This document shows, in pieces, positions 2,437 to 19,751 of a DNA stretch of 38,261 bases. Under the pieces are notes generated by a model. The model was not told the DNA's origin, did no database searches, and was given only the letters and a program-made list of their open reading frames with translations. How positions within the stretch are numbered: position 1 is the first letter of the stretch; every line of letters begins with the position of its first letter. The stretch is taken from the NCBI GenBank assembly GCA_011051685.1, contig DRKQ01000155.1:1-38261 (forward strand), read 5' to 3'. The translations under genes were made by a program, and so were the position numbers. This stretch comes from Gammaproteobacteria bacterium. GTDB lineage: Bacteria; Pseudomonadota; Gammaproteobacteria; SZUA-152.

Positions 2437-2705
2437 GACCGTAACGCGAACGCGGTGGATGGGGCTGAATTTCAGGGGCGTAGGATAGCAGGATGGCCAT
2501 TTTTTTTCAGGCGCGGGAGTACGAAGCCCGGGCCAGGATGTTATTTTGCCGCTGACACGGTTCACAGGAAGTATTGATATACTGACGACTCCCGTGTATC
2601 AAGTATCTGCCCACGTATGCCGATGAAGCACAGGGCGGATTACCATGCCGGCTCAGGTCGCTGGTGCGGCATGAATCCATACAGTCATTGGGAGTGCTTG
2701 GGTCT

Positions 2706-4769
2706 ATGGAACCCCTTCGAGTTTTACTCATTGAAGATTCTGAAGACGATGCAGAGCTGACTCTGCGCCAGCTGAAAAAGGGTGGCTACGAACCCATTGC
2801 CAAACGGGTGGACACGCCCGAGTCCATGCGCGCGGCCCTGGAGATGCGTGAGTGGGACATTATTCTTTCCGACTACACTATGCCCGAGTTTAGTGGCCCC
2901 GCGGCCCTGGCGCTGTTGCATTCCACAGGGCTGGATGTGCCTTTCATCGTGATTTCCGGCGCCATGGGCGAGGAATCGGCGGTGGCCCTGATGCGCGCCG
3001 GGGCGCACGACTACATCATGAAGGACAACCTGGCGCGCCTGATTCCCGCCATTGAACGTGAATTGCGCGAGGCCGAGGTACGACGTGCCCGGCAGCGGGC
3101 GGAGGCGGATCTGGCCCTGGCGGCCAAGGTGTTCGAGTCCAGCGTGGAGGGCGTCCTGATCGCCGATCATGAGGCTCGCATCCTGCGCATCAACAAGGCC
3201 TTTACCGAGATTACCGGGTATACGGAGGCGGATGTCGTTGGCCAGCGGCCGAGTATTCTGCAATCGGGGCGGCATGACCGGGATTTCTATCGCGCCATGT
3301 GGCAGTCCATCAACGACAACGGCTATTGGCAGGGGGAGATCTGGAACCGGCGCAAAAACGGTGAAATATTTCCGGAATGGTTGACCATCAGCGAGGTGAC
3401 AGATGCCAGCGGCCAGCGTACCCATTTGATCGGTGGTTTCACCGATATGAGCCAGCAGAAGCAGGCGGAGGATCGCATCCATCACCTGATGTACTATGAT
3501 GCCCTTACCGACCTGCCCAATCGGGCCCTGTTTCGCGAGCGCTGCAAACGAGCCATGTCACGGGCATGGCGGAGCGGAAAGCGGGTGGCCTATCTGCATT
3601 TTGACATCGACCGCTTTGTCACAATTAACGATACCCTGGGCCACCAGGTGGGTGACCAGCTGCTACAGCAGGTGAGCCAGCGCTTGGCAGGCTCGGTGCG
3701 TCAGCAGGATCTGGTGGCGCGTTTCACCGGCGACGAGTTTGGAATAGCCATGGCGGATCTGGATCGCGATACCTCGGTGGAAGATTTGCTGCATACCGTA
3801 GTGAGTGCCTTCTCCGAACCCTTTCATGCCCAGGGCCGGGAAATCTTCCTCGCGCCCAGTATTGGCGTGGCCATTTTCCCCGATGACACCAGTGATTTTA
3901 GTGAACTGGCGCGGTTCGCAGACACGGCCCTGCACGTTGCCAAGCGGGATGGCGGCGCCAACTACCATTTTTATAAGCAATCCATGAACCGCCGGGCCGA
4001 TGACAGGCTGGACATGGAAAGCGCCCTGCGTCGCGCTCTGGAGCGAGAAGAGTTTCAATTGTATTACCAGCCTCAGTGGTCGTTGGCCACGGGTGAGATA
4101 ATCGGCGTTGAGGCCTTGTTGCGCTGGCAGCGCAGGGATGAAGACATGATGCTGCCGGGGAAATTCATCCCTTTGCTGGAAGAGACCAGCCTGATCATTC
4201 CCGTGGGTGAATGGATTCTGCGTCAGGCCTGTGCGGATCACAAAGCCTGGATGACGATGGGCTTCAAGCCTACGCCGGTGGCGGTGAATCTCTCGGCCCG
4301 GCAGTTTCGTGACAAGGGCTTGGTGTCCATGCTTCGCCGGGTACTGGAGGACACCGGCATTGACACGGAAATGATCGAACTGGAGATTACCGAGAGCTGT
4401 GTCATGGAAGACCCGGAGGAGGCCTTGAAGACTTTGCAGGCCTTCCATGATATGGGGGTGCGCATTGCCATCGATGATTTTGGCACGGGCTATTCCTCGC
4501 TGAGCTATCTCAAGCGCTTCCCCCTGGACGTGCTGAAGATTGACCAGACCTTTGTGGCTGATGTGCCGGCGGACAATGACGATGCCGCCATCATCGATAC
4601 CATCATTGCCATGGGGCATCGGCTCAAACTGTCGGTAATCGCCGAGGGCGTGGAGACCCAGGAACAGGCCGATTTCCTGCGTGAACATGGCTGCGACAAT
4701 GTGCAGGGTTATTTTTATGATCGTCCCATGCCCGGTGAAGAGCTGCTCTCCCGGTTCATCAAGGTCTGA
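2706..4769 (+). CDS. response regulator with PAS, GGDEF and EAL domains (degenerate GGDEF)
   Basis: Domains in order (687-aa numbering from ATG 2706): receiver about 4-125 with acidic pair and phospho-Asp56 in LSDYTMP; PAS about 140-260; GGDEF about 262-425; EAL about 440-687. The GGDEF signature reads TGDEF (341-345), and the preceding DRFVTIND has lost the usual lysine, so diguanylate cyclase activity is doubtful although an RxxD I-site (RQQD) remains. The EAL domain keeps EALLR, NLSARQF, ELEITES, DDFGTGYSS, LKID, EGVET and QGY, so it should hydrolyse c-di-GMP. An upstream GTG at 2664 is in frame, but conservation begins at 2706, with GGGAG a little upstream. It is the first gene of the signalling block and is paralogous to the gene at 8421. 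Confidence 0.92.
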   Translation: MEPLRVLLIEDSEDDAELTLRQLKKGGYEPIAKRVDTPESMRAALEMREWDIILSDYTMPEFSGPAALALLHSTGLDVPFIVISGAMGEESAVALMRAGAHDYIMKDNLARLIPAIERELREAEVRRARQRAEADLALAAKVFESSVEGVLIADHEARILRINKAFTEITGYTEADVVGQRPSILQSGRHDRDFYRAMWQSINDNGYWQGEIWNRRKNGEIFPEWLTISEVTDASGQRTHLIGGFTDMSQQKQAEDRIHHLMYYDALTDLPNRALFRERCKRAMSRAWRSGKRVAYLHFDIDRFVTINDTLGHQVGDQLLQQVSQRLAGSVRQQDLVARFTGDEFGIAMADLDRDTSVEDLLHTVVSAFSEPFHAQGREIFLAPSIGVAIFPDDTSDFSELARFADTALHVAKRDGGANYHFYKQSMNRRADDRLDMESALRRALEREEFQLYYQPQWSLATGEIIGVEALLRWQRRDEDMMLPGKFIPLLEETSLIIPVGEWILRQACADHKAWMTMGFKPTPVAVNLSARQFRDKGLVSMLRRVLEDTGIDTEMIELEITESCVMEDPEEALKTLQAFHDMGVRIAIDDFGTGYSSLSYLKRFPLDVLKIDQTFVADVPADNDDAAIIDTIIAMGHRLKLSVIAEGVETQEQADFLREHGCDNVQGYFYDRPMPGEELLSRFIKV

Positions 4770-4780
4770 GCCACTACACC

Positions 4781-6307
4781 ATGAACTGGGGACTCTACAC
4801 ACGGGTGATTGTCAGCCTCGGCGTGGTGCTGTGTGTGTCCATGGTGTTACTGGGCTACATTTTTTTACATGACCTTAAAGAAACTGAAAAGGTAAAGGAT
4901 GTCGCCCTGACCCTTGGGGGTATCTGGTTGCTGGTGATGCTTACCATCCACCTTGTCTTGCGCAGTACCCTCAAGCCACTCACTGCCCTTACCAAACATA
5001 TTACCGGCGCATCCTTGCAAACCTCACGACAGAAAATCAGCGTGACCTTGCGCGGCCGCAAAGATGAGGTTGGCGTGTTGGCCTGCGCTTTTGACGCCAT
5101 GCTCGCCAACCTGCAGAGATCCTATGCTGATCTGGAAAAACGTGAAGAGCATTACCGGCAGTTGGTGGAAACCGCCAATGTTATTCCTTGGGAGCTGGAT
5201 CTCAATTCTCGGCGCATAAGCTATGTGGGGCCGCAGGCCAAGGCTATTCTCGGATACGAAATAGAGGACTGGTACAAGGAGAAATTCTGGCTGAATCATG
5301 TGCATGCCGACGATTTGGAGACGGCAGAAAATTTCTATCGTTCAATTGCCTCCACCGGCGAGCGGGGCGATGTCGAATACCGTATTCAACACGCCAACGG
5401 CAAGTGGGTGTGGGTGCGTGATTACGTTCACAGGTCTACCAGTGATCCCCGCTCACCCACCCTGCAGGGCCTGACCTTTGATGTGGACGAGAGGGTGAAG
5501 GCCCGCGAGGAGTTGCAGCGTTACCGCGAGCATCTGGAAAACGTGGTGGATGAACGCACCGCGGAATTACTGGCGGTGAATCAGGAGTTGCAATCCTTTG
5601 CCCATTCTCTCTCGCAGGATTTGCGGGTTCCCCTGCGCATCATCAATGGTTTCAGCGAGGCCCTGCTGGAAGATTATGCGGACGCGTTGGATGAGGAAGG
5701 CCGCAGTTACCTGCAACGCATTTGTGGCGGCACCAAAAAAATGGGCCAGATGATCGAAGACATCCTGATTCTCTCCCGCGTGACGCGCCAGGAGCTGTAC
5801 CGCAAGAATCTTGATCTGGCCCCGTTGCTTGATTCTGTAGTAAAGCGTCTCGAGGAGGAGTATCCGGATCATCGAGTGACATTTGTCGCCGATCAGCAAA
5901 TGCGGGCCAACGGAGATCCGGAACTGCTGAAAACGCTGCTCCACAATTTATTGAGCAATGCTTGGAAGTTCACTCAAAACACCGCGCAGCCACAGGTCGA
6001 ATTCACAGCTCAGACCGATAATGGCGTTACCGTGTACAGCATAAAAGACAATGGCGCCGGGTTTGACATGCAGTACGTGGAGAAGCTGTTTCTACCTTTC
6101 AGGCGCCTGCATAACACGGAAGAATTTGAGGGTGCTGGTGTGGGATTGGCGGCGGCAAAACGGATTGTTCTGCGGCATGGGGGGCTTATTTGGGGCGAGG
6201 GTAAGGTGGGCGAGGGTGCGGTATTTCGTTTTACCCTCACTGCACCTACATCGACAGAGGAAGGCCGGGACGTGAGACAGTCTGCAGATACCGAACCCGC
6301 GGTTTGA
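4781..6307 (+). CDS. membrane histidine-kinase-like protein lacking the phosphoacceptor histidine
   Basis: Two membrane helices (about residues 8-29 and 43-61) are followed by a HAMP-like segment, a PAS/PAC domain (about 123-245), a coiled coil, a dimerisation/phosphoacceptor helix and an HATPase_c domain. The ATP site looks intact: LLSNAWKFTQ (N box), DNGAGFD (G1) and GAGVGLA (G2). The H box reads SLSQDLRVPLR, where relatives have SHDLRAPLR: position 279 is Gln (CAG at 5615-5617) instead of the phosphorylated His. His275, four residues earlier, sits where relatives have an aromatic residue. It may act as a pseudokinase or partner of the next kinase. It starts 12 bases after the upstream stop. 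Confidence 0.9.
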   Translation: MNWGLYTRVIVSLGVVLCVSMVLLGYIFLHDLKETEKVKDVALTLGGIWLLVMLTIHLVLRSTLKPLTALTKHITGASLQTSRQKISVTLRGRKDEVGVLACAFDAMLANLQRSYADLEKREEHYRQLVETANVIPWELDLNSRRISYVGPQAKAILGYEIEDWYKEKFWLNHVHADDLETAENFYRSIASTGERGDVEYRIQHANGKWVWVRDYVHRSTSDPRSPTLQGLTFDVDERVKAREELQRYREHLENVVDERTAELLAVNQELQSFAHSLSQDLRVPLRIINGFSEALLEDYADALDEEGRSYLQRICGGTKKMGQMIEDILILSRVTRQELYRKNLDLAPLLDSVVKRLEEEYPDHRVTFVADQQMRANGDPELLKTLLHNLLSNAWKFTQNTAQPQVEFTAQTDNGVTVYSIKDNGAGFDMQYVEKLFLPFRRLHNTEEFEGAGVGLAAAKRIVLRHGGLIWGEGKVGEGAVFRFTLTAPTSTEEGRDVRQSADTEPAV

Positions 6308-6338: not shown

Positions 6339-7781
6339 ATGGATAGACGATTCACCGACAAAATGAACGACGTGCTGTCGGTGCCCAAGACAGCCGGGCG
6401 ACGTCACCTGGTTATTGGTTTTGCAACAGTGTTGACATTGATGGTGGGGGTAACGGGATACACCCTGCTTCGTCTTTCGACAATTAATGATCAATTGTCC
6501 GCGGTAGTCAATGTGCATAATGTCAAGAACGAACTGGTGGCTGATTTACGCGATGCCATGCGTCAGCGCCAGTTGGGCTTGCGCGACATGTTGCTGGTAG
6601 ACGATCCGTTCGAACGGGATGAGGCCTGGCAGCGTCATATGTTGGCGGCAAGTCGTTTTATGACTACGAGACAAAAGTTGGCGAAGATGCCCATGTCTGA
6701 CCAGGAGCGCATCGCTTTTGACGCCATGACCAAAGGGGCCACGGATGGTGCGGTTATCCAGCGCAAATTACTCCAGCAACTTGACCTTGACCAGCAGATT
6801 CCCCGGCGTGCTCTATTGCCGGCCTTTCACACTGCGTTGAATGCACAGGATGCAGCCTTCACGGCGATGAATAATCTCTCTGTCATTCAAAAGAAAGCGG
6901 CGCGGGAGGTTGCTGAAGGCGCCCAGCAGGCCTTTCGGCAGACCATGGCCGCCACTCTGTTTCTGGTCATGGGGGCGGTTTTGATGGGGGGCCTGGTGGC
7001 TTGGTCGGTGTTGAGGCGGGATCAAAAGATGCGTTCCGCCCTGCAAGTGTATCAGAATCAATTGCAGAATCTGGTACAGGAACGCACCGCTGAGCTGCTC
7101 AATGCCAACAGTGAACTGGAATCCTATAGCTACTCGCTGGCCCACGATCTCAATGCCCCACTGCGGGCAATCACCAGTTATTCACAAATTCTGGAGGAGG
7201 ATGCCAAAGAGAAGCTCGATCCCGGCGAGCTGGACAGCCTACAACGCATCACCCGCGCCGGCCAGGTGATGAATCGCCTCATTGAGGATATTCTCAAGCT
7301 GTCGCGTATTACCCGCTCTGGTTTTCATCGTGAGCCGGTGAGCCTGAGTGAGCTGGTGAAGAGCCAGGCGACCCGCCTGTCATCCCTGTATACCGAGAGG
7401 GAGATCCGCTGGCAGATTGCAGAGAATATTCTGGTCAGTGGCGATTCACTGTTGTTGACCCTGCTGCTGGAACATTTGCTGGAAAACGCCATTCGCTTCA
7501 GCCGTGACAAGCCCCGCACAGAGATTCAGTTTGGCGTGGAGCAACAGGATGGTGCACCGGTGTATTTTGTCAAAGACAATGGCTGCGGTTTCGATATGCG
7601 CTATGCCGACCGGCTGTTTACCGCCTTCCAGCGGTTGCATGGCGAGGATTTCACCAGTGGCACCGGGGTGGGGCTGGCCATGGTGCAGCGTATTGTGCAA
7701 CGTCATGGCGGCCGGGTGTGGGCAGAGTCGGAACTGGGAGTGGGCTCGGTATTCTTTTTCACTCTGCCGGAGTCGCACTAG
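6339..7781 (+). CDS. membrane sensor histidine kinase with four-helix-type sensor
   Basis: Two membrane helices (about 24-45 and 202-225) flank a helical periplasmic region of about 155 residues, resembling four-helix-bundle sensors of chemoreceptors. A coiled coil leads to an intact H box, YSLAHDLNAPLRAI, with His269 as phosphoacceptor. HATPase_c motifs follow: LLENAIRFS, DNGCGFD and GTGVGLA. The catalytic half is closely similar to that of the upstream gene, so the two are paralogues, but only this one can autophosphorylate canonically. The receiver at 7970 is the likely partner. HAMP is not evident between the second helix and the coiled coil. Confidence 0.92.
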   Translation: MDRRFTDKMNDVLSVPKTAGRRHLVIGFATVLTLMVGVTGYTLLRLSTINDQLSAVVNVHNVKNELVADLRDAMRQRQLGLRDMLLVDDPFERDEAWQRHMLAASRFMTTRQKLAKMPMSDQERIAFDAMTKGATDGAVIQRKLLQQLDLDQQIPRRALLPAFHTALNAQDAAFTAMNNLSVIQKKAAREVAEGAQQAFRQTMAATLFLVMGAVLMGGLVAWSVLRRDQKMRSALQVYQNQLQNLVQERTAELLNANSELESYSYSLAHDLNAPLRAITSYSQILEEDAKEKLDPGELDSLQRITRAGQVMNRLIEDILKLSRITRSGFHREPVSLSELVKSQATRLSSLYTEREIRWQIAENILVSGDSLLLTLLLEHLLENAIRFSRDKPRTEIQFGVEQQDGAPVYFVKDNGCGFDMRYADRLFTAFQRLHGEDFTSGTGVGLAMVQRIVQRHGGRVWAESELGVGSVFFFTLPESH

Positions 7782-7969: not shown

Positions 7970-8419
7970 ATGTCGGATAACGTTATTTTGTTGGTTGAAG
8001 ATAACCCGGATGATGAGGCCCTCACCCTGCGGGCCTTGAAAAAAAACAACATCCTCAATGAAGTGGTGGTTGCGCGGGACGGGGAAGAGGCACTGGACTA
8101 TTTGTTTGGTACTGGCAAGTATGAGGGCCGTGACACCAGTATCCAGCCACAGGTCATTCTCCTGGATCTGCAACTGCCCAAGCTCAGTGGCCTTGAGGTG
8201 CTCAAGCGTTTGCGGGAGGATCAGCGCACCGTGTTGCAGCCGGTGGTGATACTGACCACCTCGAGCGAGGAAACGGATATCATGGACAGCTACACACACG
8301 GTGCCAACAGTTATATCCGCAAACCGGTGGACTTCAATCAGTTCATCGATGCCGTGAAACAACTGGGCCTGTACTGGTTAGTGCTGAACGAGGCGCCCGT
8401 GCGACGCAGGGAAATTTGA
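7970..8419 (+). CDS. single-domain response regulator (Rcp1-like)
   Basis: A 149-residue stand-alone receiver: acidic residues in VEDNPDD, phospho-Asp66 in LLDLQLPK, Thr in ILTTSS and Lys in IRKPVDF. The insertion after DYLFG and the PKLSGLEVL element are typical of Rcp1-type regulators that partner phytochrome-like kinases. There is no output domain, so it acts through protein contacts or phosphotransfer. An AAGGGGAA Shine-Dalgarno lies just upstream of the ATG. The stop (8417-8419) is one base from the next ATG, indicating an operon with the gene at 8421. Confidence 0.93.
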   Translation: MSDNVILLVEDNPDDEALTLRALKKNNILNEVVVARDGEEALDYLFGTGKYEGRDTSIQPQVILLDLQLPKLSGLEVLKRLREDQRTVLQPVVILTTSSEETDIMDSYTHGANSYIRKPVDFNQFIDAVKQLGLYWLVLNEAPVRRREI

Positions 8420-8420
8420 G

Positions 8421-10124
8421 ATGTCTGTAGCACTGCGAATCCTGCTGGTGGAGGATTCCGAGGATGACGCCCTGTTGCTCAAACGCGAGTTGCAGCGCGC
8501 CGCCTACGATCCTACGGTTTTGCGCGTCGAGGATGGCCCGACCATGCAACAGGCCCTGCGTCAGCAGCATTGGGACGTGGTAGTCACCGACCACAATATC
8601 CCCGGCTTCAGTTCCGAAGAGGCCATTGCCATTGCCAAGGAATGTAAACCGGATATCCCCGTGATCATCGTCTCCGGCAGCATTGGCGAAGACATCGCCG
8701 TGGCGGCCATGAAAATGGGCGCCCATGATTACATCATGAAGGACAATCTCAAGCGCCTGGTGCCCGCCATCGAGCGGGAGTTGCGCGAGGCGGAAATGCG
8801 TCGTTCACATCGGCTCGCCGAGGCCACCATTTATCACCTCGCCTATCACGACCAGCTCACCGGCCTGGTCAATCGCAATGAATTTGACCGTCACCTTAAC
8901 AATGCCCTGGCCTCCGCCAAGTGCGATGACGTGTCTCATGTGTTGCTGTACCTGGACCTGGATCAGTTCAAGGTGATCAACGATACCTGCGGTCATCAGG
9001 CTGGAGATGAACTACTCAGTCAACTGGCCCTGGTATTGCGTGAAGAGGTGCGTGGTAATGATATTCTGGCCCGCCTGGGGGGAGATGAGTTCGGCCTGTT
9101 GCTGGAGAACTGCCCTCTGGACAAGGCTCAGGAGATTGCTGAAGACCTGCGTGCCCTGATCAGTGATTTTCGTTTTGTTTGGCGTGACAAAACCTTCAGT
9201 ATCGGGGTGAGCATTGGCATGGCGAAAATTACCAAGGAGGCGCAGGGCGCCGATGAGGTGCTGGGTGCTGCCGACATCGCCTGTTATGCTGCCAAGGATC
9301 TTGGCCGGGATCGGGTGCATGTCTATCGGGATAATGACACCGAGCTGCGACGCCGGCACTCAGAGATGCAATGGGTGGCGCGCATCAAGAATGCCCTGGA
9401 AGAGGGACGCTTCGTCTTGCACCAGCAGGCAATGAAGTCATTAAGCCGTTTCAACGGCGCAGTTCAGTGCGTGGAATTTCTGGTGCGCATGGTGGATGAA
9501 GAGAACCGCTTGATCATGCCCGGTGCGTTTATACCTGCGGCGGAGCGTTATGGAATCATGCCGCTGCTGGATCGTTGGGTGGTGCGTTCGGTAATCACCC
9601 ATCTTGCCCGCAATCTTCCTCTACATGATGAAAATCACAGTGTGTTCTTCATCAACCTTTCCGGCCATTCCTTTGATGACGAGGATTTCCCGGTGTTCAT
9701 CCGCCAGCAGATCAATCACTACGGTATTGCCCCCGAGATGCTATGTTTCGAGATTACCGAAACAGCGGCCATCTCCAACCTCAGTGAGGCAGTGAATTTC
9801 ATCAACGAGATCCGCGGTTTTGGTTGCCAGTTTGCCTTGGATGATTTTGGTTCCGGCCTCAGTTCATTTTCCTACTTGAAGACTTTGCCGGTGGATTATC
9901 TGAAAATAGATGGTTCATTCGTGCGCGACCTGGATGTGGATCCCATGAATTTTGCGATCGTCCAGGCAATCAACGAAATCGGTCATGTGGCCGGCCTCAG
10001 TACTATCGCAGAATTCGTTGAGAATGAGCAAACCCTGGAAAGCCTGCGAGGCATCGGGGTGGACATGGTGCAAGGTTATTGCATTGCTCGTCCCGAGGCT
10101 TTACCGGGTCAGGCTGTGGTCTGA
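8421..10124 (+). CDS. response regulator with GGDEF and EAL domains
   Basis: Receiver about 4-125 (phospho-Asp57 in VTDHNIPG), GGDEF about 137-300 and EAL about 320-560, without the PAS domain found in its paralogue at 2706. The GGDEF motif is intact (LGGDEF, GGDEF at 220-224) with an RGND I-site at 211-214, so cyclase activity with product inhibition is expected. The EAL signature reads EFL (VEFLVRM) and EGVE reads EFVE, but the metal-binding and catalytic positions in NLS, EITET, DDFGSG, LKID and QGY remain, so phosphodiesterase activity is uncertain. Receiver-linker sequence (AHDYIMKDNL, IERELREAE) is nearly identical to the paralogue. AGGGA lies 8 bases before the ATG. Confidence 0.92.
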   Translation: MSVALRILLVEDSEDDALLLKRELQRAAYDPTVLRVEDGPTMQQALRQQHWDVVVTDHNIPGFSSEEAIAIAKECKPDIPVIIVSGSIGEDIAVAAMKMGAHDYIMKDNLKRLVPAIERELREAEMRRSHRLAEATIYHLAYHDQLTGLVNRNEFDRHLNNALASAKCDDVSHVLLYLDLDQFKVINDTCGHQAGDELLSQLALVLREEVRGNDILARLGGDEFGLLLENCPLDKAQEIAEDLRALISDFRFVWRDKTFSIGVSIGMAKITKEAQGADEVLGAADIACYAAKDLGRDRVHVYRDNDTELRRRHSEMQWVARIKNALEEGRFVLHQQAMKSLSRFNGAVQCVEFLVRMVDEENRLIMPGAFIPAAERYGIMPLLDRWVVRSVITHLARNLPLHDENHSVFFINLSGHSFDDEDFPVFIRQQINHYGIAPEMLCFEITETAAISNLSEAVNFINEIRGFGCQFALDDFGSGLSSFSYLKTLPVDYLKIDGSFVRDLDVDPMNFAIVQAINEIGHVAGLSTIAEFVENEQTLESLRGIGVDMVQGYCIARPEALPGQAVV

Positions 10125-13944: not shown

Positions 13945-15321
13945 ATGACCTCCATTTCTACACCAGAAATCCTCGATTCGGCCTACGCGCTGCTCGATGC
14001 CGCTGTGCTCACCTACAAGGGTGAACCCACGGGCACTGCAGCGGCGCTGGACGAAACGGTTGCAGCACCCAATTATGAAGAATGTTTTGTGCGCGATTTC
14101 GTCCCCAGTGCACTGGTATTTTTGTGTGATGGTAAACCTGAGATCGTGCGCAATTTTCTGAAGATGGTGGTCAGCCTGCGCAATCAGCAGTCAGTGATGG
14201 AAGGCCATGAACGTGCCCTGGGTTTGATGCCCGCCAGCTTTCGTGTACCCGCGGAAGATGATGCAGAAGGCAAACCCACCGCAGATTTTGGTGAACTGGC
14301 CATCGGTCGTGTGGCGCCTGTGGACTCCGCCATGTGGTGGGTGATTTTACTGCGCAGCTATATCTTGGTAACGGGTGATGTTGCGCTGGCGCACAGTAAG
14401 GAATTTCAGGAAAGTATGCGCTACACCCTGGATTTGTATTTGAAGGAAAGTTTCGAAACCTCCCCGGCCATGCTGGTACCGGATGCCTCGTTCATGATTG
14501 ACCGGCGCATGGGGGTGTATGGCCATCCGCTGGAAATCCAGGCATTGTTGTATGGCATGTTATGTACGGCACAGGAGTTATTGTTACCCACGCCGGAGAA
14601 CGAACGGCTGCTGTCCAACTGCAAAAAACGCATGCAGACCCTGCGCTCTTATGTGCGTATCTACTACTGGTTAGACTTGCAGCGGCTTAATGAGATTCAC
14701 AGGTTTCGCGCCGAAGAGTTCGGCAAGGACGCGGCCAATCATTTGAATATCTACCCCGAAACCATTCCCGAATGGATTGATGGCTGGCTACCACCCGAGA
14801 GTGGCTACCTGGTGGGTAATCTGGGCGTGGGGCGCATGGATTTCCGATTGTTCTCATTTGGCAATCTGCTATCCATCCTGTTTGGCCTGGCCACCGATGA
14901 ACAGGCGCAGCAGATCATGAACCTATACGAAGCACGTTGGGAAGAGCTGGTGGGCGTTATGCCGTTAAAGATTGCGTATCCAGCCGTGGATGGTGACAAA
15001 TGGCGGTATACTACGGGCAGTGATCCCAAGAACGTGCCCTGGTCATATCACAATGGTGGTAGCTGGCCCTGTTTGATATGGGCCTTCGTAGGTGCAGCAT
15101 TGCGCACTGGTCGGCACGAGCTTGCCCATAAAATGCTGAACCAGGCCATGACCAGGTTGCACCACGACAACTGGCCCGAATATTACGATGGTAAAAAAGG
15201 AAACCTCATTGGCCGTCGCTCGAACATGAAACAAACCTGGACCGCCAGCGCGGTGATTCTGGGTCATCATTTTCTTGAAAAGCCGGATGCTCTGGCGGTT
15301 TTTGAATCTATCAATTTTTAA
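13945..15321 (+). CDS. alkaline/neutral invertase (glycoside hydrolase family 100)
   Basis: The 458-residue protein matches cytosolic GH100 invertases, which hydrolyse sucrose to glucose and fructose. The expected general acid lies in APVDSAMWW (Asp127) and the nucleophile-activating glutamate in NWPEYYDG (Glu412). Other family elements are present: NYEECFVRDFVPSAL near the N-terminus, LMPASF, and GGSWPCLIWAF. There is no signal peptide, consistent with a cytosolic enzyme. The length fits the cyanobacterial/proteobacterial form. It is followed after 12 bases by an HDOD gene, so the two are probably co-transcribed. The divergent ParA-CBM48 operon raises the possibility of a shared role in carbohydrate storage; that link is inference. 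Confidence 0.92.
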   Translation: MTSISTPEILDSAYALLDAAVLTYKGEPTGTAAALDETVAAPNYEECFVRDFVPSALVFLCDGKPEIVRNFLKMVVSLRNQQSVMEGHERALGLMPASFRVPAEDDAEGKPTADFGELAIGRVAPVDSAMWWVILLRSYILVTGDVALAHSKEFQESMRYTLDLYLKESFETSPAMLVPDASFMIDRRMGVYGHPLEIQALLYGMLCTAQELLLPTPENERLLSNCKKRMQTLRSYVRIYYWLDLQRLNEIHRFRAEEFGKDAANHLNIYPETIPEWIDGWLPPESGYLVGNLGVGRMDFRLFSFGNLLSILFGLATDEQAQQIMNLYEARWEELVGVMPLKIAYPAVDGDKWRYTTGSDPKNVPWSYHNGGSWPCLIWAFVGAALRTGRHELAHKMLNQAMTRLHHDNWPEYYDGKKGNLIGRRSNMKQTWTASAVILGHHFLEKPDALAVFESINF

Positions 15322-18518: not shown

Positions 18519-19751
18519 ATGTTGATCGAGCCGCCGGAAAAGGCCCCGGAAATCTCCGTCACCCGCCAGCCCGTGTATAACGAAAGCGCCGAGACCTTCG
18601 GCTATGAATTGCTGTTTCGCCACAGCGATGCGGAGTTCTCCAGCCTAGATCACAGCGACCCCGAATCCTCGCAGATTATCGCCAATGTGTTCATGGAGAT
18701 CGGTCTCAAGCTGCTGGTGGGGGACAAGCCCGCCTTCATCAATCTGCCCCATGGCTTCATCCGCGAACAGCAAAGCATTCCTTTCGCCAAAGACAAGTTT
18801 ATTCTGCAGGTGGCCGCCAGTGGCGCGATGGACGATGCGCTGATTGCCGCCATCGGCGAGCTTCACGCCCAGGGCTTCAGCATCGCTCTGGATGAGTTGG
18901 TGATGGACGCTAACAAACAGGCATTGCTGGGTTACAGCGACATGATCAAGCTGGACATCAGTGGCTACAGCGATAACGAACTGGCCGACTATTGTGTCCA
19001 ATTGCAAGAGGCCAACCGTCTCCTGTTGGCCAAGCGGGTGGATAGTCAGGATGACTTCGAGCGCTGCAAGTCGCTGGGCTTTCGCTATTTCCAGGGTAGT
19101 TTTCTCAGTGAGCCCAAGGTGGTGCGATACAAGACCTTGCCCACCAATAAACTGTTGTTGCTGGAGATCCTCGCCAGGATCCAGGATCCAGAGGTGGAGC
19201 TGGTAGAGTTGGAGGAGCTGATCAACCGGGACGTGGGTATCAGTTTCAAGTTTCTGCGCCTGATCAACTCGGCTAACTTCGGCCTGTCGAAGAAGGTGGA
19301 GTCCCTGCACCAGGCCATGCTGTTGCTGGGCCTGAAGGAGATCAAGAGCTGGGTGTCGCTGGCGGCCCTGTCCAATATCGATGCCGTGCCCCAGGAACTC
19401 ACCGACATGTCCATCATGCGCGCCCGCATGTGCAAGGCACTGGCGCAAAAGGCGGGCTGTGAGGATCCCGATGCCTTTTTCACCGTGGGTATGTTCTCCC
19501 TGATCGATGCCATCATGTCCAAGAGCATGACCAGTATCCTCAAGTCCCTGCCTTTTTCCGACGAGATCAACGAGGCCCTGTTACGCCGAAAAAGCGGTAC
19601 GGCCATGGCCGAGGCCCTGGACTGTGTCATTGCCCACGAGCAGGGGGAGTGGCACATGATCAAGTTTGCCCGGCTCACGGCGCAGGAGATCAGGCAGGTG
19701 TATATCGATTCCCTGGAATGGTGCCGGGGTGTGCGATCACAATTGGCGTAA
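18519..19751 (+). CDS. EAL-HDOD protein (YuxH/CdgJ type, degenerate EAL)
   Basis: The 410-residue protein has an N-terminal EAL-derived domain (about 12-200) and an HDOD domain (about 205-400), the architecture of YuxH and Vibrio CdgJ. The EAL motif reads ELL (GYELLFR), NLS reads NLP, DDFG is replaced by LDEL, while IKLDI and the FQGSFLS end remain. The catalytic pair of aspartates is missing, so hydrolysis of c-di-GMP is not expected; related proteins regulate motility by protein contact. The ATG at 18519 has a weak AGAGG upstream. Confidence 0.9.
   Translation: MLIEPPEKAPEISVTRQPVYNESAETFGYELLFRHSDAEFSSLDHSDPESSQIIANVFMEIGLKLLVGDKPAFINLPHGFIREQQSIPFAKDKFILQVAASGAMDDALIAAIGELHAQGFSIALDELVMDANKQALLGYSDMIKLDISGYSDNELADYCVQLQEANRLLLAKRVDSQDDFERCKSLGFRYFQGSFLSEPKVVRYKTLPTNKLLLLEILARIQDPEVELVELEELINRDVGISFKFLRLINSANFGLSKKVESLHQAMLLLGLKEIKSWVSLAALSNIDAVPQELTDMSIMRARMCKALAQKAGCEDPDAFFTVGMFSLIDAIMSKSMTSILKSLPFSDEINEALLRRKSGTAMAEALDCVIAHEQGEWHMIKFARLTAQEIRQVYIDSLEWCRGVRSQLA

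Follow-up and report, generated by a model that had tools for sequence, protein, structure and literature searches.

Genes and domain architecture of the locus

The analyzed stretch of DNA (hereafter the window; 38,261 nucleotides) contains a gene on the forward strand (4781–6307) that encodes a Gln-type histidine-kinase-like protein of 508 amino acids (QHK). Its N-terminus consists of two predicted membrane helices joined by a short loop, followed by a weakly matching HAMP domain and by PAS_3, HisKA (residues 270–335, E 2.7e-12) and HATPase_c (residues 378–488, E 1.9e-19; 5912–6244) domains identified with Pfam. QHK thus possesses both domains that characterize a sensor histidine kinase and lacks the phosphoacceptor histidine of this enzyme class. 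Its 17-residue H box LQSFAHSLSQDLRVPLR (residues 270–286; 5588–5638) carries Gln at the phosphoacceptor position (Q279, 5615–5617), which agrees in both motif and position with the original prediction, and contains a second residue of interest, H275 (5603–5605), which precedes the acceptor by one turn of the helix. The N, G1, F and G2 boxes of the ATP-binding domain are kept, and seven of their residues (N393, D423, G425, G427, G451, G453 and G455) are invariant among ten orthologues, in agreement with the earlier claim of intact ATP-binding motifs. An AlphaFold model of QHK, which with a mean pLDDT of 67 supports the fold only, contains dimerization (DHp) helices and an ATPase (CA) fold that match solved histidine kinase cores, and the closest solved structures are ordinary histidine kinases.

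QHK is preceded on the same strand by PDE1 (2664–4769), a REC-PAS-GGDEF-EAL protein with an intact receiver Asp and EAL motif and a degenerate GGDEF motif (TGDEF). Three further genes follow on the forward strand: a kinase with a 4HB_MCP sensor (HHK, 6339–7781), which retains the normal phosphoacceptor His in its H box SYSLAHDLNAPLR as had been predicted, a single-domain response regulator (RR, 7970–8419) and PDE2 (8421–10124), a REC-GGDEF-EAL protein with an intact GGDEF motif and an EAL motif that reads EFL. Elsewhere in the window, a GH100 alkaline/neutral invertase (13945–15321, Pfam E 1e-189) and an HDOD protein that partially matches EAL (18519–19751), possibly another c-di-GMP-related protein, were identified.

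Conservation and origin of the acceptor glutamine

A search of 57 genomes identified QHK orthologues (63–74% identity) in nine of the eleven other genomes of the same genus; none was found in the remaining two, G001 and G008, which are 80% and 85% complete, respectively. The orthologue set therefore comprises ten sequences, the window protein and one from each of the nine genomes, with loci L038 and L039 taken as the same contigs as two of the nine orthologue loci (G002 and G009). In all ten, which the alignment places at 61–71% identity, the reading frame is open and the acceptor position is occupied by Gln encoded by CAG; a histidine codon (CAC or CAT), which would have refuted the original prediction, was found in none of the nine orthologues (0/9). 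The 17 H-box residues are identical in the ten sequences despite synonymous variation at 14 of the 17 codons, and the only codons without variation are those of F273, H275 (always CAT) and Q279. The presence of CAG in every orthologue, together with the selection measures given below, rules out a sequencing error at Q279.

The orthologues of G010 and G011 (loci L062 and L063) keep a periplasmic region of ~130–140 residues between the transmembrane helices, which is gone from the other eight, including that of the window. As both proteins combine this sensor region with Gln, loss of the periplasmic sensor did not cause the loss of His.

Selection on QHK was compared, within one set of five genomes, with that on three paralogue families that carry His. 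The DHp domain has a mean pairwise identity of 94.3% in QHK versus 93.9, 92.8 and 95.1% in the paralogues, and the CA domain one of 87.4% versus 88.2, 89.3 and 89.0%. In the same genomes, omega is 0.082 for the DHp domain of QHK (paralogues 0.056–0.099) and 0.167 for its CA domain (paralogues 0.095–0.132). Over the ten QHK sequences, omega amounts to 0.067 for DHp, 0.115 for CA and 0.040 for the 146 codons before the H box, which cover most of the PAS domain. These identity and omega values place QHK under strong constraint, with selection on its dimerization and ATPase domains about as strong as in the His-bearing paralogues. The five-genome CA omega, the highest of the four families, hints at a slight relaxation of catalysis.

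The Gln form is rare. In a class-wide search with DNA patterns covering the Gln and His forms of the H box only, the Gln form was found in 2 of 369 genomes, which are the two genomes of the same genus that had been drawn, and the His form at 65 places (table sum) in 19 of 94 genomes. Among the 68 distinct kinase cores caught by the motif pattern in the collected loci, many of them orthologous to each other, 58 carry His and ten carry Gln, the latter being the QHK orthologue group. In a tree of these cores, with bootstraps that had not fully settled, the ten Gln proteins group together (100/100) and the HHK kinase falls into another group (99/99), so a tandem duplication as the source of the two neighboring kinases is ruled out. 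The branch leading to the Gln clade is long, at 0.67 changes per site. Given a single Gln clade on a long stem, Gln most simply arose once, in one genus, in what would have been a phase of rapid change that then gave way to stability.

The substitution at the acceptor position does not stand alone. Relative to the 58 His-type cores, all ten QHK sequences carry Q instead of E at position -8 (E in 57/58), H275 instead of Y at -4 (Y in 57/58), Q instead of the invariant H at position 0 (58/58) and V instead of A, S or T (52, 3 and 3 cores, respectively) at +4. These QHK-specific changes are spaced by four and hence form one face of the helix. QHK also carries L at position -2, where V or I is found in His-type cores and L in one of the 58. 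H275 is followed by Ser, and D280 stays next to Q279. A His at -4 beside a normal acceptor His was found at one of the 65 His-form places by reading the individual rows and is also present in solved bacteriophytochromes aligned to QHK.

Gene neighborhood and c-di-GMP signaling

PDE1 lies directly before QHK at all ten loci; the two genes overlap or are at most 12 bp apart at eight of them and are separated by 198 bp in G010 and 370 bp in G011. All 19 aligned PDE1 homologues retain the Asp of the receiver active site, the EAL motif and DDFG. The first Gly of GGDEF, by contrast, is replaced by T, V, A or M in the ten PDE1 proteins from genomes with QHK and is intact in the nine others, including that of G008 from the same genus. 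Eight of these nine stem from genomes in which the search found no QHK orthologue, and the ninth is a second copy on contig C272 of the window's own assembly, probably a contaminant. The loss of the GGDEF Gly and the presence of QHK share a single event on the tree rather than ten, and their match is thus a striking coincidence of history and no statistical test. From its motifs, the PDE1 next to QHK would function as a phosphodiesterase only and not as a cyclase. PDE2 shows the reverse pattern, with EFL in place of EAL and an intact GGDEF, also in genus g3, which suggests that PDE1 and PDE2 constitute a cyclase–phosphodiesterase pair. The matching GGDEF loss in PDE1 offers a concrete handle.

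Contig C272 (locus L151) encodes a second PDE1-RR-PDE2 operon, the PDE1 of which is 93% identical to that of genus g3 genome G013 and 65% identical to the window copy; the listed contamination of the assembly is 4%. The window's regulator at 7970–8419 is likewise compared with genus g3 homologues, to which it is ~87% identical versus 65–66% for PDE1 and 68% for PDE2. Such high conservation would be in keeping with a hub that serves several partners.

At the other nine loci, PDE1 is invariably followed by QHK, the single-domain regulator comes next in eight of nine, and PDE2 was found in eight of nine; the spacing between QHK and the regulator is 195–562 bp in those of the other genomes with both genes. 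QHK persists in G005, where the regulator is decayed, and in G010, which lacks PDE2, so the regulator and PDE2 cannot be its only targets. Outside the genus, PDE1-RR-PDE2 without a kinase between them occurs in G013 and G017, and PDE1-RR likewise in G016 and G018; in G022, G020 and G015 the order could not be followed further, as PDE1 is succeeded by another gene or by the contig end. As the same operon exists without the kinase outside the genus, QHK most simply entered it between PDE1 and RR within this genus. In G015 (locus L147), a different sensor-like gene lies ~50 bp behind the PDE1 homologue and is truncated by the contig end; it may represent a separate sensor insertion at this position.

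HHK occurs next to a QHK orthologue only in the window and is absent from this place in all nine other genomes, among them the outgroup genomes G010 and G011. When nine intergenic stretches were searched for relics of HHK by local alignment and compared with shuffled sequences, the best two alignments (L056 and L057) were reached by 3 of 200 shuffles, a value to be read against nine tests, and matched different parts of the gene; the remaining alignments were reached by 17 to 180 of 200 shuffles. A gain of HHK in the window's lineage is a simpler reading than its loss elsewhere.

Proposed function and alternative explanations

Selection has kept the H box, the dimerization helices and the ATP-binding boxes of QHK, and its gene is fixed directly behind that of PDE1. 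The original prediction of a pseudokinase is supported insofar as the canonical acceptor is stably gone while purifying selection has kept the rest of the transmitter; QHK shows a conserved non-His residue at the acceptor position within a kept transmitter fold, one of the marks of an acceptor-less pseudokinase. QHK is probably a regulator with the shape of a kinase that functions without self-phosphorylation. Although we would not put it at even odds, the reading we favor over the others is a DivL-like pseudokinase without an acceptor, of separate origin among phytochrome-type kinases, that would act on the receivers of a c-di-GMP module. In this proposed mechanism, QHK would be anchored in the membrane and dimerize, and the signal would enter via the PAS domain; most orthologues have lost the periplasmic domain. 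Without making phosphohistidine, QHK would bind receiver domains by its intact dimerization surface, its main target being the receiver of PDE1 and perhaps also the single-domain regulator at 7970. The receiver of PDE1 would be phosphorylated by other kinases of the cell, and QHK could tune this c-di-GMP phosphodiesterase by reading information from the receiver, or imposing it on the receiver, without phosphotransfer, as DivL does towards DivK.

Ordinary decay, in which a dying or mis-assembled kinase gene acquired Gln by chance substitution, has next to no probability left. The long stem of the Gln clade is what a loss of constraint would leave behind, but the open frame and Gln in ten of ten orthologues, the omega values of 0.04–0.12 in the three parts measured over the ten sequences and an H box that is invariant despite many synonymous changes refute decay, unless one error is common to all ten assemblies.

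A full set of ATP-binding boxes is at least as compatible with a catalytic role as with that of a scaffold. QHK might pair via its dimerization helices with a His-bearing kinase and either trans-phosphorylate the partner's His by means of its own intact ATPase domain or hold the partner on or off, a role to which we assign a limited probability, well short of that of the receiver-directed pseudokinase. The invariant ATP-binding boxes and the purifying selection on the CA domain are in line with this role, a His-bearing HAMP-type paralogue family (C65 type) was found in seven QHK-bearing genomes, and the native histidine kinases ChrS and HrrS are described as heterodimerizing in excerpts of one report (PMC9491836). 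Nevertheless, no conserved partner kinase is linked to QHK among the ten loci, and the partner originally proposed, HHK, is missing at this place from nine of nine other genomes, shares only 43% identity with QHK in the kinase core and is no sister of it in the tree. Heterodimerization with, or modulation of, this neighbor is thus not supported as a general function of QHK, and the two kinases may still interact in the window organism.

QHK could also be a dedicated phosphatase. Acceptor mutants of some kinases retain phosphatase activity, and the loss of the acceptor might accordingly have left a one-way receiver phosphatase that switches PDE1, the 7970 regulator or PDE2 off; the receiver active sites of PDE1 and of the 7970 regulator are intact. 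The HisKA phosphatase motif, however, requires Thr or Asn at +4, where all ten QHK sequences carry Val and most relatives Ala, which makes this activity improbable for QHK. DivL is described as having no phosphatase activity on DivK~P (PMC4211667). Slightly more doubtful still is a relocated acceptor, by which QHK would autophosphorylate on H275 after a coordinated rebuilding of the helix face. The four coordinated replacements at -8, -4, 0 and +4 described above, the unvarying CAT codon of H275 and the kept catalytic boxes are what such a shift would produce, but H275 is followed by Ser rather than by an acidic residue as after the canonical His, a His at -4 also stands beside the normal His in ordinary kinases, and the ATPase domain would need to dock one turn higher. 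H275 makes this alternative directly testable. If true, QHK would represent a re-registered histidine kinase that any H-box search would score as inactive, and it would drive a c-di-GMP phosphodiesterase that lost its intact cyclase motif upon the arrival of the kinase.

Comparison with known systems

As far as tested, QHK is by descent none of the known proteins that it resembles, namely DivL, plant phytochromes, RocA and the ChrS variant. The histidine kinase-related domain (HKRD) of plant phytochromes likewise has a phytochrome-type core that lost His and kept its N, G1, F and G2 boxes, and it is described as a homo- and heterodimerization domain in the parts of the reports consulted here (PMC5712524, PMC4525182). 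QHK differs from canonical plant phytochromes in its separate origin and in its lack of a GAF/PHY photosensory module; only HAMP and PAS domains, and no N-terminal PAS-GAF-PHY, were identified before its core with Pfam. RocA of group A Streptococcus, according to excerpts of PMC7028121, is similar to QHK as interpreted here in being a membrane-bound histidine kinase homologue without kinase activity of its own, and RocA–CovS is reported there as a case of a pseudokinase holding a partner kinase on or off. In contrast to QHK, which has no His at this position, RocA keeps a predicted, dispensable His (H246), and it acts on CovS. The ChrS pseudokinase of evolved Corynebacterium glutamicum is a histidine kinase variant that promotes signaling through the phosphotransfer of another kinase; as far as the same excerpts of PMC9491836 go, it arose by a laboratory frameshift in CA, whereas QHK carries a natural acceptor substitution.

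The closest functional parallel is DivL of Caulobacter and other alphaproteobacteria, which the excerpts of PMC4211667 describe as having Tyr at the acceptor position, exhibiting no kinase or phosphatase activity, binding ATP weakly and binding DivK~P. Both proteins have the histidine kinase fold with PAS input and DHp and CA domains, in both the acceptor His is replaced and the replacement is conserved across orthologues, and DivL works with the single-domain regulator DivK, a type of protein that is also encoded in the QHK cluster (PMC4211667, in the parts available). QHK is no orthologue of DivL judging from the acceptor residue, which is Tyr in DivL (Ala in Magnetospirillum, according to the same excerpts) and Gln in QHK, and from its rank among the solved kinases matching QHK, where DivL (4q20, E 3.3e-14) scores below 8f71, other kinases and bacteriophytochromes. 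Furthermore, QHK is linked to c-di-GMP enzymes, belongs to a gammaproteobacterial genus and falls into a phytochrome-type H-box subfamily, and no link to CckA, as it exists for DivL, is known for it. In the titles and abstract openings of the literature on acceptor-less histidine kinases, c-di-GMP and heterodimers, no Gln-type bacterial kinase was found; the same portion of the literature contains few naturally acceptor-less, long-conserved histidine kinases, with DivL as the main bacterial one. Tied to a c-di-GMP phosphodiesterase, a Gln kinase of separate origin and genus-wide occurrence would be a second case besides DivL, and it bears on what dead kinases turn into, be it sensors of receivers, partners of other kinases or something different.
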